Virus record (IMG/VR): IMGVR_UViG_3300010354_000395
Coordinates: 1 to 29,965 of that record
Reading direction: 5' to 3' (one strand)
DNA from: a virus
Length of the DNA stretch: 29,965 bases
The translations under genes and the position numbers were made by a program. Of this stretch, positions 14,890 through 29,452 are shown piece by piece. Numbering within the stretch: the first letter of the stretch is position 1; every line of letters starts with the position of its first letter. The notes beneath the pieces are model-generated. The model did no database searches. It was not told the DNA's origin and saw only the letters and a program-made list of their open reading frames with translations.

Positions 14890-15609
14890 ATGCCTTTACC
14901 TAAGATTGCTACACCAACATATGAACTTGAATTGCCATCATCAGGAGAAACAATTCAATATAGACCTTTTCTAGTTAAAGAAGAAAAACTGCTTGTAATT
15001 GCTCTAGAGAGTGAAGATACAAAGCAAATTACAACAGCTATTAAAACAGTTATTAAAAATTGCATTCTCACTAAAAGTGTTAAAGTAGAGGCACTGCCTA
15101 CTTTTGATATTGAATATTTGTTTCTGAATATTCGCGGTAAATCTGTTGGAGAAGAACTTGAGATTAGTATTATTTGTCCTGATGATGGTGAGACTCAAGT
15201 TCCTGTAAAAATTAATCTTGATGATATTCAAGTGCAAAAAAGTGAAGAACATTCAAATCGAATCAAAATCGATGATTCTATTATGATGGAAATGAGATAT
15301 CCATCACTTGATCAATTCATCAAAAACAACTTCGATTTTAATGAAAAAAATGCAATGGATCAATCATTTGACTTGATTGGTTCATGTATCGATAAAATTT
15401 ATACTGAAGATGAAGCATGGTCTACGGCAGATGTAACAAAGAAAGAACTTTCTGATTTCCTAGAGTCGATGAATTCTTCTCAATTTAAAGGAATTGAAAA
15501 GTTTTTTGAAACGATGCCAAAACTTTCTCATACAGTTAAAGTTAAAAACCCAGTTACAGAAATTGAAAGTGAAGTTGTTTTAGAAGGGTTAGCATCTTTT
15601 TTCGCGTAG
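14890..15609 (+). CDS. 26: Baseplate hub assembly protein gp26
   Basis: A 239-residue protein starting MPLPKIATPTYELELPSSGE. The N-terminal GETIQYRPFLVKEEKLLVIA and C-terminal KLSHTVKVKNPVTEIESEVV segments are characteristic of the T4 gp26-type baseplate family. By position just before the tape-measure genes it is the likely counterpart of lambda G, a tape-measure chaperone. Its last codons contain T TTT TTC (15597-15603), in phase for a -1 shift into gp51 (see findings). It follows a perfect late promoter. Confidence 0.82.
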   Translation: MPLPKIATPTYELELPSSGETIQYRPFLVKEEKLLVIALESEDTKQITTAIKTVIKNCILTKSVKVEALPTFDIEYLFLNIRGKSVGEELEISIICPDDGETQVPVKINLDDIQVQKSEEHSNRIKIDDSIMMEMRYPSLDQFIKNNFDFNEKNAMDQSFDLIGSCIDKIYTEDEAWSTADVTKKELSDFLESMNSSQFKGIEKFFETMPKLSHTVKVKNPVTEIESEVVLEGLASFFA

Positions 15610-15627
15610 CAATGGTCCATATGGACC
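15597..15627 (+). promoter_or_regulatory. Candidate -1 programmed frameshift signal (gp26-gp51)
   Basis: The heptamer T TTT TTC (15597-15603) lies in the gp26 reading frame as X XXY YYZ, two codons before the TAG at 15607-15609. Ten bases later GGTCC (15614-15618) pairs with GGACC (15623-15627) around AUAU. A -1 slip continues with codons for R-V-A into the gp51 ATG frame with no stop, giving a fusion of about 303 residues. Confidence 0.65.
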
Positions 15628-15800
15628 TAGAAAATTATTTCCGTCTCAATTTTTCGTTGATGCAGTACCATAAATATTCATTAACGGAAATTGAGAATTG
15701 GATGCCTTGGGAAAGAGACATCTACGTTGCATTATTACAACAGCATCTTGAAGAAGAGCAATTAAAACAACAGCAGCAGATGAGCAATGCCCGTTTCTAA
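15612..15800 (+). CDS. 51: Baseplate hub assembly catalyst gp51 / tape-measure chaperone tail domain
   Basis: A 62-residue protein (MVHMDLENYFRLNFSLMQYH, then SLTEIENWMPWERDIYVALL and a Gln-rich end). The WMPWERD-x-Y pattern resembles tail-assembly chaperone C-terminal domains (lambda T, P2 E'). Position right after gp26 is the T4 gene order 26-51. There is no Shine-Dalgarno before ATG 15612, and that ATG lies at the foot of the GGTCC/GGACC hairpin, so it may be made by coupling or mainly as a gp26-gp51 frameshift product. It overlaps the next gene by 14 bases. Confidence 0.7.
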   Translation: MVHMDLENYFRLNFSLMQYHKYSLTEIENWMPWERDIYVALLQQHLEEEQLKQQQQMSNARF

Positions 15801-18333
15801 TCCAACAGAGACAATCGATTCAAGAATCTTAAGACTTATTGGTCTAGAAGATGTCTTTGACTTGGATTATGAAACATATTTGCTTCTTCTTAAGGAAGCA
15901 ATGGTTAAAGGTAGGATGACCAAAACAACAATTCCTACAGAAGAAATTGAATTGTTGACGAATGAATATAAAAGAGTAAAGAGTAAAAAGGACGCTGGAA
16001 GATTTCAAGTAAAAACTAAAAAAATAACGGCAAAATCTTTTACAATTGGTGGAAAAAAATTACCAGGAAGTAAAGAAACTAAAGCATTACCTGGAACTGG
16101 AATTGGTATTTCTCCTGTCTCAAAAAGTTTAGAAGATAATATTGCCACAATAACATCATCTGTGGTATCGATTGCAGATATTATGAGGCAGCAGGCAAAA
16201 GTAGCAAGTGATTCTGCTGCATATGATCGAAGGCAAGCAGAAAATGAAAAGAGAGCAGTTGCAGAAAGTAATTTAGAAAAAAGATTCGAAGGACTAAAAA
16301 AAGCAGCAGAAAAAATAATTGCTCCTGTAAAGGGAGTTCTAAGTAAGATTTTTGATTTTCTTACTAAAATTTTCTTTGGAAGAATACTTTATAAACTTGT
16401 AGAGTGGTTTGGAGACCCTAAAAACGCAAGTAAAGTAAAATCCATCATTCGTTTCATAGGAGATTGGTGGCCAGCATTATTGAGTTCTTATATTTTATTT
16501 GGTACATCATTCGGAAAATTTGTTAGAGGAACAGTAGGATTAATAGGAAGATTTATATTTCAAATAGGTCGAGTTGCCATACCACAACTCTTAAAACTCA
16601 TAAGAACACCTTTTGGTGCTGGAGCAGCGTTGTTTAGTGCAGGTGCTTTAATACCTGCAATGTTCCCAGATACAGTTAATAAACAAGAAAGCAAAACTCA
16701 AAATGCACCTGGAACAACTGAGGATAAAATAAGAAAACTTCAAGAGCAAAAAGCAAATCTCAATTTGCTCCAAAAAATGCAAGGAGTTGGTTCAGAAATT
16801 GATGAACAAATATCATCGTTAAAATCAGGACAAACAAAATCTTATGGATTTAGTGGTGGCGGATATAGTGGATATATAAGCGGACAAAAGGGAATAGATA
16901 AGATTCCTGCAATGCTTTCTGATGGTGAATTTGTAATGTCCCGTGGTGCTGTTCAAATGTATGGAACAGACACTCTTTCTGCAATGAACGCTGCTGGTGG
17001 TGGTACAAATAGACCTAGAATAATAAGTGGATTAACTTATGCTCAAGGTGGTGGTTATGTGGGTGAAGAAAAAAAAGAAAGAATAAAAGATCCACTTTTA
17101 GAGGGTAGAAAATTTTTAAGTGTAGGTTCAAACACACCTTTTGTTAAAGATCCAATAAGTGCAATTGGTCGATTCATTAAATTTAAGTTTGGGGCAGATG
17201 TTAATCAACGGTCAACATGGGGTATTCCAACACCTACATCTGGAACTCGCACTTCTGGCAGAACTTCCACAGGGTCTTTAATGAATGACCCAATAGGTGC
17301 TATTCAAAGAATCGTTAACAGTGTAACAGAAAAATCCCCAGATACATCATCAAGACCAAGTGCTGGTGGAAATCAATTTACTAGAGTAACCAGCGAAATT
17401 CAAAGGAGACTAGGTGGACTTAAAGGAAAACCTGGAGAAAAAAATATGTTCCAGGAGATAGGGGAAAAACTACGTGGCCCTGGTGCAGCAACTTATAGAG
17501 ATGCTGGTTCAATATATGCCAAACAAATGCTTGGTGGAATGGGTGGACCTATTAGTGAAAGAGATTTATCTGGAGAATCTCAACAAGAATTGCAGAAAGC
17601 AATTCAAAGAGCAAAAAAGAGAACATCGCAACAAATTAGAATAGAACAACAAAAATTAAATACTTTACTTCAAAATCCACCAAAACCAGGACAAGACAAG
17701 ACTAAATGGAATAATGCAGTCGCTACTCAAAGAAGTTTTCTTAAGAAATTTAAAGAGGGTGGAATACGAGTTCAGTACACTGATTATGCAGAAAATGGCA
17801 AGATGAGTAAGTCTGCTGAAAATGCCAAGAATATTCTTGGGCAATTTTGGGCATATGGTAGAGACAAAAAAATGGGTGGTGGATATCGTGTAGAAGACAA
17901 ATATGATTTTGATAAAATGAAAGACCCTATGGGGGTTTTATTTGGAAAAGGGAAAACAACACAACAAAGACTTCAAGCATTACACCAAATGAATCCTCTT
18001 AAAGGTGGTGGTGATGTTGATATGGTTCTTGGTGGAAAAAGAACTGCAGCAGAATCTTGGGGTCTTTCTGCAAGTAAAACTTTATTAGGCGGATTGTTTG
18101 GTGCATCTGGAAAACCAAAAGCGCAAATTGCATCACAAAAACCAAAAACAAAACCTGTAAAACCACCATCCAAATCTGGTCCGATGGTCATATATGGAAA
18201 AAATGATCCAAGAAGAAAACAAAAAGGACCATATAAATCTAGATTTGCAAGAAGTGGATCTGCAGTTCCAAAATTTAGTGCTTCTACTTCTGGATCTAGA
18301 ACTAAAACACAAACTTTAGGTTTGATGAGATAA
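15787..18333 (+). CDS. Large tail protein, probable tape measure (848 aa)
   Basis: An 848-residue protein. The N-terminal part is charged and helical; about residues 175-300 contain strongly hydrophobic segments (KIFDFLTKIFFGRILYKLVE, FIGDWWPALLSSYILFGTSF, GAGAALFSAGALIPAMFP), as in tape-measure proteins that form the channel in the host membrane. Residues about 355-410 carry the Gly-rich motif KIPAMLSDGEFVMSRGAVQM, common in phage tape measures. The rest is low-complexity, basic and Gly/Ser-rich. It directly follows the gp26/gp51 chaperone genes. T4's gp29 is the functional counterpart, but similarity to it is not visible by eye. Confidence 0.7.
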   Translation: MPVSNPTETIDSRILRLIGLEDVFDLDYETYLLLLKEAMVKGRMTKTTIPTEEIELLTNEYKRVKSKKDAGRFQVKTKKITAKSFTIGGKKLPGSKETKALPGTGIGISPVSKSLEDNIATITSSVVSIADIMRQQAKVASDSAAYDRRQAENEKRAVAESNLEKRFEGLKKAAEKIIAPVKGVLSKIFDFLTKIFFGRILYKLVEWFGDPKNASKVKSIIRFIGDWWPALLSSYILFGTSFGKFVRGTVGLIGRFIFQIGRVAIPQLLKLIRTPFGAGAALFSAGALIPAMFPDTVNKQESKTQNAPGTTEDKIRKLQEQKANLNLLQKMQGVGSEIDEQISSLKSGQTKSYGFSGGGYSGYISGQKGIDKIPAMLSDGEFVMSRGAVQMYGTDTLSAMNAAGGGTNRPRIISGLTYAQGGGYVGEEKKERIKDPLLEGRKFLSVGSNTPFVKDPISAIGRFIKFKFGADVNQRSTWGIPTPTSGTRTSGRTSTGSLMNDPIGAIQRIVNSVTEKSPDTSSRPSAGGNQFTRVTSEIQRRLGGLKGKPGEKNMFQEIGEKLRGPGAATYRDAGSIYAKQMLGGMGGPISERDLSGESQQELQKAIQRAKKRTSQQIRIEQQKLNTLLQNPPKPGQDKTKWNNAVATQRSFLKKFKEGGIRVQYTDYAENGKMSKSAENAKNILGQFWAYGRDKKMGGGYRVEDKYDFDKMKDPMGVLFGKGKTTQQRLQALHQMNPLKGGGDVDMVLGGKRTAAESWGLSASKTLLGGLFGASGKPKAQIASQKPKTKPVKPPSKSGPMVIYGKNDPRRKQKGPYKSRFARSGSAVPKFSASTSGSRTKTQTLGLMR

Positions 18334-18334
18334 G

Positions 18335-21223
18335 ATGGCAATTAATCCTCAAAAATTTTTACCAGCAGGAAAAACAGGTGGACCATTGGCAAAAATGTCC
18401 AAAAAACTTGTTAAAAGTTCCGCAGTTATTAGTTTATCCGAAAATTCTATAAAAAATATTGGCATAATAAAAGTAAAAGTTATAGAGGTTGAAAGCATAC
18501 TGAAAGGTACTCTTGCCTTACAAAAAAAGCAATTAGATAATAAGAAAAGAGTATCAAGTCAATCTAGAAGAGAAAAGATAGAATCAAATTTAGAAACGAA
18601 ACCAAAGGCAGAAAAAGGTGATGTTAAGATGCCAAAAGTCCCCGGTATGGGATTTTTAGATTGGGTTAAAAATTTTATAGGTAAAATCATTTTAGGATAT
18701 TTTGCGGTTAGGATGATTGACCATCTTCCAAAACTAATGCCATTTGTAAAAGTTATAGGAGGAGCAGCAGATTTTATTATCAATGTTGGAGGCAAACTTC
18801 TAGATGGATTAGTTACTTTTATTGATTGGGGATATAAAGCATATGATGTCACAAGAGGATTTGTAAAAAATCTGTTTGGCAATGATGGTGTAAAACAATT
18901 TGATCAATTATCTGGACTTTTAAATCAATTTTTAAATCTTGCACTCATTGCAGGAATGGTTGCTGCTGGGTCTGGTGGTGGAAGAGGAAGAGGTGGTGGA
19001 GGTGGAGGTGTAAAACCAAGACCAGGAACTGGAGGAAGACCTAAAGTAACGACAAGTGGTGGTGGTCGTGCTGGTGGTATTGATATCAGAAATCCATTAA
19101 GACAAAGACCCAAAGTAACTATGGGTCGTGGTGGAAATCGAGCACTTTTATCTTCCATCAGGCCCTTTTTAAAGAGAATTCCATTACCAATTGTTGCAGC
19201 ATTAATTGATTTTGGATTGTCCGTTGCACTTGGGGAAAATCCGGGAAGAGCAGCATTTAGAGCAATTGGAGCTGGTCTTTTAGGTGCAATCGGAGCGGCT
19301 GCAGGGTCAGTTGTTCCTGGAGCGGGGACTTTTATTGGTGGTTTACTAGGAGGAACGGCTGGAGATTTAGTAGGAGGAGCTTTATATGATTCATTTTTTA
19401 GCGGCAAATCAGCAACTCCAAAAACTCAAGGAAGAGCACAAGGGGGGAATGTTATTTCCAGGGGAGGAAAATTTGGAGGAGTTTCCAGAACCATTACAAA
19501 AGAAAATAGAGGTAAATATAAAAGATTAATCACAAAAAAACCTGGCAGAATTGAAATCAAACCAGGTGCTGATATTGGGGGAGAAGAAAAACTTTTTGGT
19601 TTATTTCCTAAACCAAAACTACCAGAGTTCATCAATCCATTTGGAGTCATTGAGAAAAGTGGAAAAGAATTAGGTAAAAGTGATTTCTTTGGGCCAATTC
19701 TTGCAATTACATCTAAAATTTTATTAGGACAAAAACCAAGCAATAGCGATTATAAAAACGTTGGACTTGGAATTAATCTTTTAATATCAAAAGGTATTCA
19801 AGATGGAAGATTAAAAGGTGGTGTAGCTGCTGCATTCGCTGAAGGTGGTTTTGTAGATCCACAAACACTTTCTGCAATATCTGATGGCGGAGATATAAGT
19901 GATTGGGTATCTGCTTCATTTAAAGATGCAACTGAAAGCAATGCCCAAAAGACATTAAGAGAAATTCAAGAGAATTTAAGATTAAAAAAAGAGGGTAATG
20001 GATCTGAAACAAAACCAACATCAGAAGAGGACGTACCAACAGGAACTGGGTCATTAACTGGCAATACAAACGCAGAAAAAGTTTTTAATTATCTTATTGG
20101 ATATGGGTTTACTGAACAAGCAGCCGCTGGTGTAATCGGAAACCTTATGCAAGAATCTGGAGTCAATCCCCAATCAAAACAACTTGGCGGAGGTCCCGGA
20201 AGAGGTATTATGCAATGGGGAACAGGTGCAGGTAGTGGTGGAAGATGGGATGCACTCGTTGCTTGGGCATCATCGTCTGGAAAAGATCCATGGAAATTAG
20301 ACACTCAAGTTGAATGGATGATGAAAGAAATGAAAAGTTATGGAACGTTGAATAGATTAAAGGGTGTCACTAATGTAAAAAAAGCAGTTGAAATATTTGA
20401 AAGTGAAATGGAAAAAGCAGGAACTCCAAACTATCCTAGAAGATATCAATATGCTGCTGATGCTTTGGCAAGTTTTGGAAAGGGTCGTGCTGGTGGTGGA
20501 AATTTTACAGGAGGAGGGACAGGGGCTGGATATGGCTCTGGTGGAGTTAAAATCGCAGGCGATTTGGGAGATTATTTGAAAGCAAATAGAGGTGAAATTG
20601 GAGTGACTGGAAGTATTCATCAGCACCCTAGACATCCAGGACAATCTAGAAGAAATTATTTTTCATATCATAACCAAAATAGAGCACTTGATATTGGTGG
20701 ATATGGGCCCAATCATCCAAGTTCAGGTGGAAGAGATGAGCAAGCACCAGTCATTAGAGCGTTATTATCATGGAACAAAAAAAATGGATATACTCCTGTA
20801 GAAATTATTCATGGCTCACCTGCATTTAAGGGGTTAGGAAAATATGAATCAGCTCCAAATGCTCTCCACTCAAATCACGTCCATGTTGCATATAAAAAAG
20901 GTGGAGAAACTTTAGGTTATCCTCACCTTGCATCAATTGCAGAAAATGGTCCAGAAATTGTTATTGATAATGATAGTGCGTATTCAAGTCCTGAAGCTAA
21001 AAATATGTTGCTTGCCATCAACCAAGCAAAAGGATACAAAGGTGTTATGGAAGCAATAAGACAATATGCTCCATATGATGCTTTGGCTCCACAAATGATT
21101 TTCATGCCAGAGACAAATGTTGGTAGTGACTATGATGGTGAACAAGATGAATCAATGATAGCGATGCAATCCGTTGGTGGAGAAAGTTCGAATCCGATGG
21201 ATGTTTTATACAAGGGTGGTTAA
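18335..21223 (+). CDS. Large tail protein with lysozyme and M15-like peptidase domains (962 aa)
   Basis: A 962-residue protein. Residues about 105-190 hold hydrophobic helices (FIGKIILGYFAVRMIDHLPK) like those of the preceding protein; about 210-265 is Gly/Arg-rich; about 290-350 is a long glycine-zipper hydrophobic stretch. Residues about 570-715 match the phage tail lysozyme type (GVIGNLMQESGVNPQ with the likely catalytic Glu, GRGIMQWG). Residues about 745-860 contain H-x-N-x-x-x-LDIGG and HSNHVHVAY, the H...D...HxH pattern of M15/LAS zinc peptidases. It probably cuts peptidoglycan during DNA injection and replaces the lysozyme domain T4 carries on gp5. It starts two bases after the preceding stop. 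Confidence 0.8.
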   Translation: MAINPQKFLPAGKTGGPLAKMSKKLVKSSAVISLSENSIKNIGIIKVKVIEVESILKGTLALQKKQLDNKKRVSSQSRREKIESNLETKPKAEKGDVKMPKVPGMGFLDWVKNFIGKIILGYFAVRMIDHLPKLMPFVKVIGGAADFIINVGGKLLDGLVTFIDWGYKAYDVTRGFVKNLFGNDGVKQFDQLSGLLNQFLNLALIAGMVAAGSGGGRGRGGGGGGVKPRPGTGGRPKVTTSGGGRAGGIDIRNPLRQRPKVTMGRGGNRALLSSIRPFLKRIPLPIVAALIDFGLSVALGENPGRAAFRAIGAGLLGAIGAAAGSVVPGAGTFIGGLLGGTAGDLVGGALYDSFFSGKSATPKTQGRAQGGNVISRGGKFGGVSRTITKENRGKYKRLITKKPGRIEIKPGADIGGEEKLFGLFPKPKLPEFINPFGVIEKSGKELGKSDFFGPILAITSKILLGQKPSNSDYKNVGLGINLLISKGIQDGRLKGGVAAAFAEGGFVDPQTLSAISDGGDISDWVSASFKDATESNAQKTLREIQENLRLKKEGNGSETKPTSEEDVPTGTGSLTGNTNAEKVFNYLIGYGFTEQAAAGVIGNLMQESGVNPQSKQLGGGPGRGIMQWGTGAGSGGRWDALVAWASSSGKDPWKLDTQVEWMMKEMKSYGTLNRLKGVTNVKKAVEIFESEMEKAGTPNYPRRYQYAADALASFGKGRAGGGNFTGGGTGAGYGSGGVKIAGDLGDYLKANRGEIGVTGSIHQHPRHPGQSRRNYFSYHNQNRALDIGGYGPNHPSSGGRDEQAPVIRALLSWNKKNGYTPVEIIHGSPAFKGLGKYESAPNALHSNHVHVAYKKGGETLGYPHLASIAENGPEIVIDNDSAYSSPEAKNMLLAINQAKGYKGVMEAIRQYAPYDALAPQMIFMPETNVGSDYDGEQDESMIAMQSVGGESSNPMDVLYKGG

Positions 21224-28793: not shown

Positions 28794-28800
28794 TTTTTAT

Positions 28801-28885
28801 GGGAGCGTGGCGGAACAGGTAGACGCACCGGACTTAAAATCCGTTGGGAGTTAATCCCGTGGGAGTTCGACCCTCCCCGTTCCTA
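28801..28885 (+). tRNA. trnL: tRNA-Leu (anticodon UAA)
   Basis: An 85-nt class II tRNA with a long variable arm. Acceptor GGGAGCG/CGTTCCT (28801-28807/28878-28884, with wobble pairs), anticodon loop CTTAAAA giving UAA, and T arm GGGAG TTCGACC CTCCC (28861-28877). The CCA end is not encoded. It reads UUA/UUG codons, which an AT-rich phage uses more than its host. Confidence 0.93.
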
Positions 28886-28909
28886 TTAGGAGTTTTAATT
28901 GACTCCTAA
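28886..28909 (+). repeat. Hairpin directly after tRNA-Leu, overlapping a CTAAATA motif
   Basis: TTAGGAGT (28886-28893) pairs perfectly with ACTCCTAA (28902-28909) around an 8-nt loop. There is no T-run after it, so it is not a standard terminator; it may help tRNA 3' processing. The right arm overlaps CTAAATA (28906-28912), a late-promoter-like motif before the gene at 28931. Confidence 0.6.
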
Positions 28910-29201: not shown

Positions 29202-29273
29202 GCCCTTGTAGCTCAGTGGTAGAGCGCGGCTTTTGTAAAGCCGATGTCGCAAGTTCAAATCTTGTCGGGGGCT
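29202..29273 (+). tRNA. trnT: tRNA-Thr (anticodon UGU)
   Basis: A 72-nt cloverleaf: acceptor GCCCTTG/CGGGGGC (29202-29208/29266-29272), D arm GCTC...GAGC, anticodon stem CGGCT/AGCCG with loop TTTGTAA (anticodon UGU), and T arm GCAAG TTCAAAT CTTGT. CCA is not encoded. It reads ACA codons, common in this AT-rich genome. Confidence 0.94.
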
Positions 29274-29293
29274 TGAGTTCGCAAAACTCCAAA

Positions 29294-29452
29294 ATGTCAT
29301 TAATATCACAAAGAGACCGACAACTTGCAATTGATGCACTTACCTGTTATGCTAGAGTTAAAGAAACTTTAGACTGGTCTGAGCAAGATAGAATGGAAGT
29401 TAATGCTCTGATTAATTGGATTAAATTGGAGTATCAGAAAAATGAAAATTAA
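29294..29452 (+). CDS. Small hypothetical protein, 52 aa
   Basis: The start is taken as ATG 29294 because the longer in-frame version from 29216 would begin inside tRNA-Thr. The 52 residues (MSLISQRDRQLAIDALTCYA...) form two likely helices. It overlaps the next gene by 11 bases. Function unknown. Confidence 0.6.
   Translation: MSLISQRDRQLAIDALTCYARVKETLDWSEQDRMEVNALINWIKLEYQKNEN

Follow-up and report, generated by a model that had tools for sequence, protein, structure and literature searches.

The stretch of DNA considered here (hereafter the window) comprises positions 1 to 29,965 of the IMG/VR virus record IMGVR_UViG_3300010354_000395. Near its middle lie two genes annotated as gp26 and gp51, followed by a putative tape-measure gene. 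The features of the gp26/gp51 junction and its surroundings are:

14890..15609, plus strand: gp26, putative short form of a tail assembly chaperone (TAC-N), 239 aa, with Pfam, PHROG and AF2-model fold matches
15583..15588, plus strand: GAAGGG, a Shine-Dalgarno (SD)-like candidate stimulator 8 nt before the heptamer, from anti-SD energies
15597..15603, plus strand: T TTT TTC, a conserved slippery heptamer lying in phase
15607..15609, plus strand: TAG, zero-frame stop of gp26, read from the sequence
15603..15800, plus strand: -1 frame extension annotated as gp51, putative TAC-C domain, 65 aa after the slip, conserved and with PHROG matches
15612..15614, plus strand: ATG that could be read as the start of gp51 but is probably internal, variable and without an SD
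15614..15627, plus strand: hairpin GGTCC-ATAT-GGACC, 10 nt after the heptamer, from folding and covariation
14890..15800, plus strand: predicted frameshift product gp26-gp51 (TAC-NC), 303 aa
15787..18333, plus strand: putative tape-measure gene into which the end of gp51 extends; its PHROG matches to tape measures are weak (e.g., phrog_3547, E 1e-5)

The gp26 frame closes with the codons TCT (15595-15597), TTT (15598-15600), TTC (15601-15603), GCG (15604-15606) and TAG (15607-15609), leaving a single sense codon, GCG, between the heptamer and the stop. T TTT TTC is in the right phase because its first T is the third base of a codon, and TTTTTTC occurs in this phase only here in the ~24.5 kb of plus-strand genes of the window. 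The -1 frame is free of stops from 15603 up to the stop codon at 15798-15800, and the gp51 ATG at 15612 sits within it. The predicted 303 aa protein would thus consist of 238 codons through TTC and 65 codons in the -1 frame. The initial annotation had proposed this heptamer and its phase, the -1 position of gp51 with no intervening stop, and the GGTCC/GGACC hairpin with its 10 nt spacer, and each of these is present in the sequence at the positions given.

Is this arrangement kept in relatives? A set of 80 IMG/VR loci with gp26 relatives (72-91% identity) was compared with the window; counting the window, 79 include the end of the gene, and in all 79 complete junctions T TTT TTC is in phase and the -1 frame open. 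Four further scans, with gp26 of S-RIM2, Pelagibacter phage HTVC008M, Vibrio phage VH7D and Sinorhizobium phage phiN3 as queries, gave 153 complete loci, some on the same contigs as the first set, and 152 of these carry T TTT TTC or T TTT TTT with an open -1 frame. The exception (L181) is 99% identical to HTVC008M, its frame ends early with no heptamer near the stop, and it seems to be truncated or mis-assembled. Merging identical junctions from both sets left 167 distinct, though related and non-independent, junctions, all of which keep the heptamer in phase (155 TTTTTTC, 12 TTTTTTT) and a -1 frame open into the gp51 domain. The same layout is found in isolate phages of Synechococcus, Prochlorococcus, Pelagibacter, Sinorhizobium, Agrobacterium, Aeromonas and Stenotrophomonas and in Vibrio VH7D; in this isolate comparison the heptamer is absent from T4, Vibrio K444/D510 and Salmonella SeF3a. 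The alignment across T4-like cyanophages suggested at the outset as a check thus finds heptamer and phase kept in every complete junction of this type.

What surrounds the heptamer is less constant. Among the loci of the further scans the zero-frame tail after it varies from 0 to 8 codons while the heptamer and the -1 frame stay the same, and the first zero-frame codon encodes Ala, Gly, Val, Ser, Glu, Gln, Thr or Asn or is a stop. Despite this varying residue, the first residue in the -1 frame is Arg in 136 of the 167 distinct junctions, and the -1 extension is conserved among relatives in both length and sequence. At six marine loci (L223, L242, L243, L245, L257 and L197) the gp26 frame continues 8 codons beyond the heptamer, so that the final part of gp26 and the C domain are encoded by the same bases in two frames.

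Since all 167 junctions retain the heptamer and an open -1 frame and the gp51 ATG varies, a programmed -1 ribosomal frameshift is by far the best reading of the comparative data. Judged from sequence, such a frameshift very probably makes two forms of one tail assembly chaperone at this locus; it is in this sense that we infer the slip, its efficiency, the ratio of the two forms and their chaperone role.

The alternative that survives best, improbable as it is, treats gp51 as a separate small gene, translated by termination-reinitiation at the ATG at 15612, with the SD-like site near the end of gp26 holding the ribosome close for coupling. The TAG stop is only 2 nt from this ATG, gp51 is annotated as its own CDS in GenBank records, and SD-like sites near gene ends have been proposed as coupling aids (PMC5009743); here, however, the SD-like site is 23 nt away from the ATG. 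The codon itself is present in 49 of the 79 close loci and missing from the other 30, where CTA, CTG, CTC, TTA or TTG is found instead. Among the 167 distinct junctions, 60 lack an ATG in the first 15 codons of the -1 frame, 35 lack any ATG, GTG or TTG there, and just 7 have a start codon with an SD tetramer. Anti-SD energies before the ATG average about -1 to +1.5 kcal/mol, which bears out the earlier remark that it has no Shine-Dalgarno sequence. Separate initiation would also leave the invariant heptamer and the fixed -1 phase unexplained. An independent gp51 start was rejected on these grounds, an unconserved start codon set against an invariant heptamer and phase, and the programmed frameshift is preferred. 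A different arrangement is found in Vibrio K444 and D510 (L085 ~2223 and L088 ~2139), which have no heptamer and in which the gp26 stop and the downstream start overlap as TAATG; these overlaps lend the separate-gene reading some support, and may represent a switch to translational coupling.

Upstream of the heptamer, the strongest mean anti-SD pairing anywhere in gp26 falls in the 10-nt windows starting 15-18 nt before it (79 loci). The mean at this site is -7.0 kcal/mol vs. a gp26 mean of -0.40 (sd 1.72), and at no locus is the peak weaker than -5.0 kcal/mol. Across the distinct junctions, anti-SD energies of -4 kcal/mol or lower are reached in 160 of 167, as compared with 10% of control positions. 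The Glu and Gly codons that make up the site compensate for one another: GAA is accompanied by GGG in 21 of 22 cases, and GAG by any Gly codon. From the end of GAAGGG it is 9 nt to the first shift codon and 12 to the second, near the spacing known for -1 stimulation by SD-like sites, reported as 9-14 nt to the shift site (PMC5009743). The initial annotation did not mention this element, which on comparative sequence evidence appears to be a widespread stimulator.

The downstream hairpin has a different distribution. It folds with -8.3 kcal/mol (z -2.9), and its arms pair in 86% of cells. Each of the 5 pairs shows double-sided changes, amounting to 42 cells where shuffles give 14.3 (sd 7.1), and the hairpin exceeds every slid version. 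Within the window's clade its stability is ~3 kcal/mol beyond that expected from random synonymous -1-frame codons, the next best segment of the C domain reaching -0.9 against synonymous recoding. This extra stability is absent from distant loci, so the hairpin, which is short (5 bp) and missing from distant relatives, is specific to the window's own lineage. Tree-based independent-pairs tests of hairpin and SD covariation were not significant, with only 1-4 well-supported pairs and hence no power, and reliance was therefore placed on pair counts, slide controls and synonymous-codon randomisation. A larger stem at ~15650-15690 folds well in the window and was dropped as a part of the signal, the region showing just a mild gain in stability over synonymous recoding across relatives (mean z -0.8). 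We think it likely that the three parts of the cassette differ in history: the heptamer and the SD-like stimulator would be near-universal, and the hairpin would have been gained or kept by one cyanophage lineage, its stem being maintained by compensatory, often synonymous, -1-frame changes, perhaps tuning the chaperone ratio.

These flanking elements also bear on a second alternative, in which slippage of RNA polymerase on the T6 run would yield altered mRNAs that encode the fusion. The site is indeed a homopolymer run, although six T is short for transcriptional slippage, and slippage by the polymerase would select neither C as the seventh base (155/167) nor an SD-like site nor a hairpin 10 nt downstream. 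With these three features unaccounted for this mechanism was rejected, and it is rated as highly improbable, below reinitiation. Least credible of all, to the point of being negligible, is a fortuitous heptamer, arising from a conserved Phe-Phe next to an unrelated frame: Phe237-Phe238 is invariant in the protein alignment and many Phe codons end in T anyway, but the second codon is fixed as TTC in 79/79 loci where TTC makes up only 29% of Phe codons in gp26, the third base of the preceding codon is T in 79/79 with Ser spelled both AGT and TCT, and every locus has an open, homologous -1 frame, so that this explanation too was rejected, disfavoured by the 79/79, 152/153 and 167/167 conservation. 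The TTT part by itself is unremarkable, because several other Phe positions in gp26 are also nearly all TTT. One such codon, at 15505-15507 (alignment column 207, in a KFFE motif), is TTT in 79/79, its neighbour being TTC or TTT.

What do the two proteins encode? gp26 matches the Pfam family T4_baseplate (PF12322, E 1.5e-75) and PHROG 150 (phrog_150). The C domain, to which the annotated 62 aa gp51 of the window is confined, matches phrog_634 (E 1e-27) and also the C-terminal positions 241-281 of phrog_150, which suggests that fused forms exist. In the AF2 model of gp26 (pLDDT 87.5), residues 1-86 have the HK97 tail assembly chaperone 2ob9 as top match in VIA-align (Z 8.0), followed by 3fgx (Z 8.0) and 3klu (Z 7.2), which we take to be YqbN-type phage chaperones, and the match after these drops to 4.8. 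The fold match is modest (Z near 8) and is owed to VIA-align, since Foldseek of the model against the PDB gave no significant match (E 0.86). A profile search of PDB sequences with gp26 returned nothing relevant, and an NCBIfam search no match. With an HK97 chaperone as best match of its N-terminal domain, gp26 would be TAC-N and gp26-gp51 TAC-NC, as in lambda G/GT, a comparison already drawn in the initial annotation and now supported by the fold. gp26 is accordingly predicted to have a TAC-like fold, from which a chaperone role may be proposed.

The programmed frameshift could operate as follows. A majority of ribosomes would terminate at the end of gp26 and release TAC-N (239 aa). Some, slowed by 16S rRNA pairing with GAAGGG and by the hairpin, would re-pair from TTT TTC to TTT TTT at 15597-15603 and continue in the -1 frame, and the product of the slip would be gp26-gp51 (TAC-NC), which would read ...LASFF-RVAMVHMDL... 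across the junction. By analogy with lambda G/GT, TAC-N may form a coat around the tape-measure protein, and TAC-NC may recruit tube subunits through its C domain.

The junction resembles lambda as well in that the slippery site lies close to where the first chaperone gene ends and the -1 extension runs on into the following frame; a putative tape-measure gene adjoins. The gene after gp51 is likely the tape measure, which would be encoded by 15787-18333 or by 18335-21223; the tape-measure matches of the downstream genes are weak, and the upstream gene is annotated as tail tube or tube initiator in some relatives. The lambda G/GT heptamer differs from T TTT TTC. Unlike lambda G/GT, the locus carries an SD-like site and a lineage-specific hairpin, and gp26 is larger at 239 aa. 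In phage Adele, whose TAC is of the Vandenendeviridae/Andersonviridae type, TAC-N likewise has a conserved poly-T slip site where it ends, and the -1 frame is open; the motif there is GTTTTT in place of T TTT TTC, and the phage families are different (PMC12846349).

A 2016 recoding review described G-T frameshifting as widely conserved "except T4" (PMC5009743). Against this older view, the present data support one in which T4-like cyanophages and their relatives make their TAC by a lambda-type frameshift. The initial annotation knew of no earlier description for T4-type gp26/gp51; according to citing papers (PMC10885494; PMC12846349), one was given by Vladimirov, Gautam & Davidson (2022, Virology 566:9-15). 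Going by these papers, the T4-like TACs of that study have the same chaperone role with a short TAC-N and a long TAC-NC, TAC-N genes of T4-like phages are known to contain poly-T slippery sites (PMC12846349), and some T4-like phages instead encode the fused form in a gene separate from the short one (PMC10885494). On the strength of these statements the core finding is classed as already known, and the window is a well-supported example, not a discovery. The literature search found no text on a cyanophage gp26/gp51 frameshift and reached Vladimirov et al. (2022) through citing papers only; relative to those papers, what is added here is the SD-like element, the hairpin that covaries and is confined to one lineage, and the extent of the conservation. 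The first two offer concrete mutant targets for how the chaperone ratio is set.

The gp26 and gp51 of T4 itself belong to the same families as those of the window. T4 differs in that the two genes are separate, gp26 lacks a heptamer at its end, and gene 26 is followed by gene 25. The abstract by Vladimirov, Gautam and Davidson (2022) reportedly states that T4 uses genes 26 and 51 and that frameshifting is conserved in several T4-like groups. The N part of T4 gp51 is gp26-like, a weak match with a score of 12.8 vs. 6.3 for the best of 200 shuffles, and its C part is gp51-like (16.5 vs. 7.8, again 200 shuffles). With both parts within one protein, T4 seems to encode the long form in a gene of its own. 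The window does not have such a separate, full-length gene 51 with a gp26-like N domain, its gp51 being 62 aa vs. 249 aa in T4. Salmonella SeF3a (Ackermannviridae, L090:1345-2402) has gp26 and a PHROG 9633 ORF with no recognisable slippery heptamer.

Among 16 annotated cyanophage, Pelagibacter and rhizobial-phage records examined, the slip is marked in none. Most enter gp51 as an independent gene, with start positions that differ; in some records it is trimmed to 90-96 nt and from others it is absent, as expected if the C domain has no start codon of its own. Cases of a C domain cut to this length or omitted in public phage records are L270:1407-1496, L094:2301-2396, L098 and L084.

Two tRNA genes lie towards the end of the window:

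28800-28886, plus strand: tRNA-Leu (TAA)
29202-29273, plus strand: tRNA-Thr (TGT)

The listed start of the ORF at 29216-29452 is probably not real, because it falls inside the tRNA-Thr gene.
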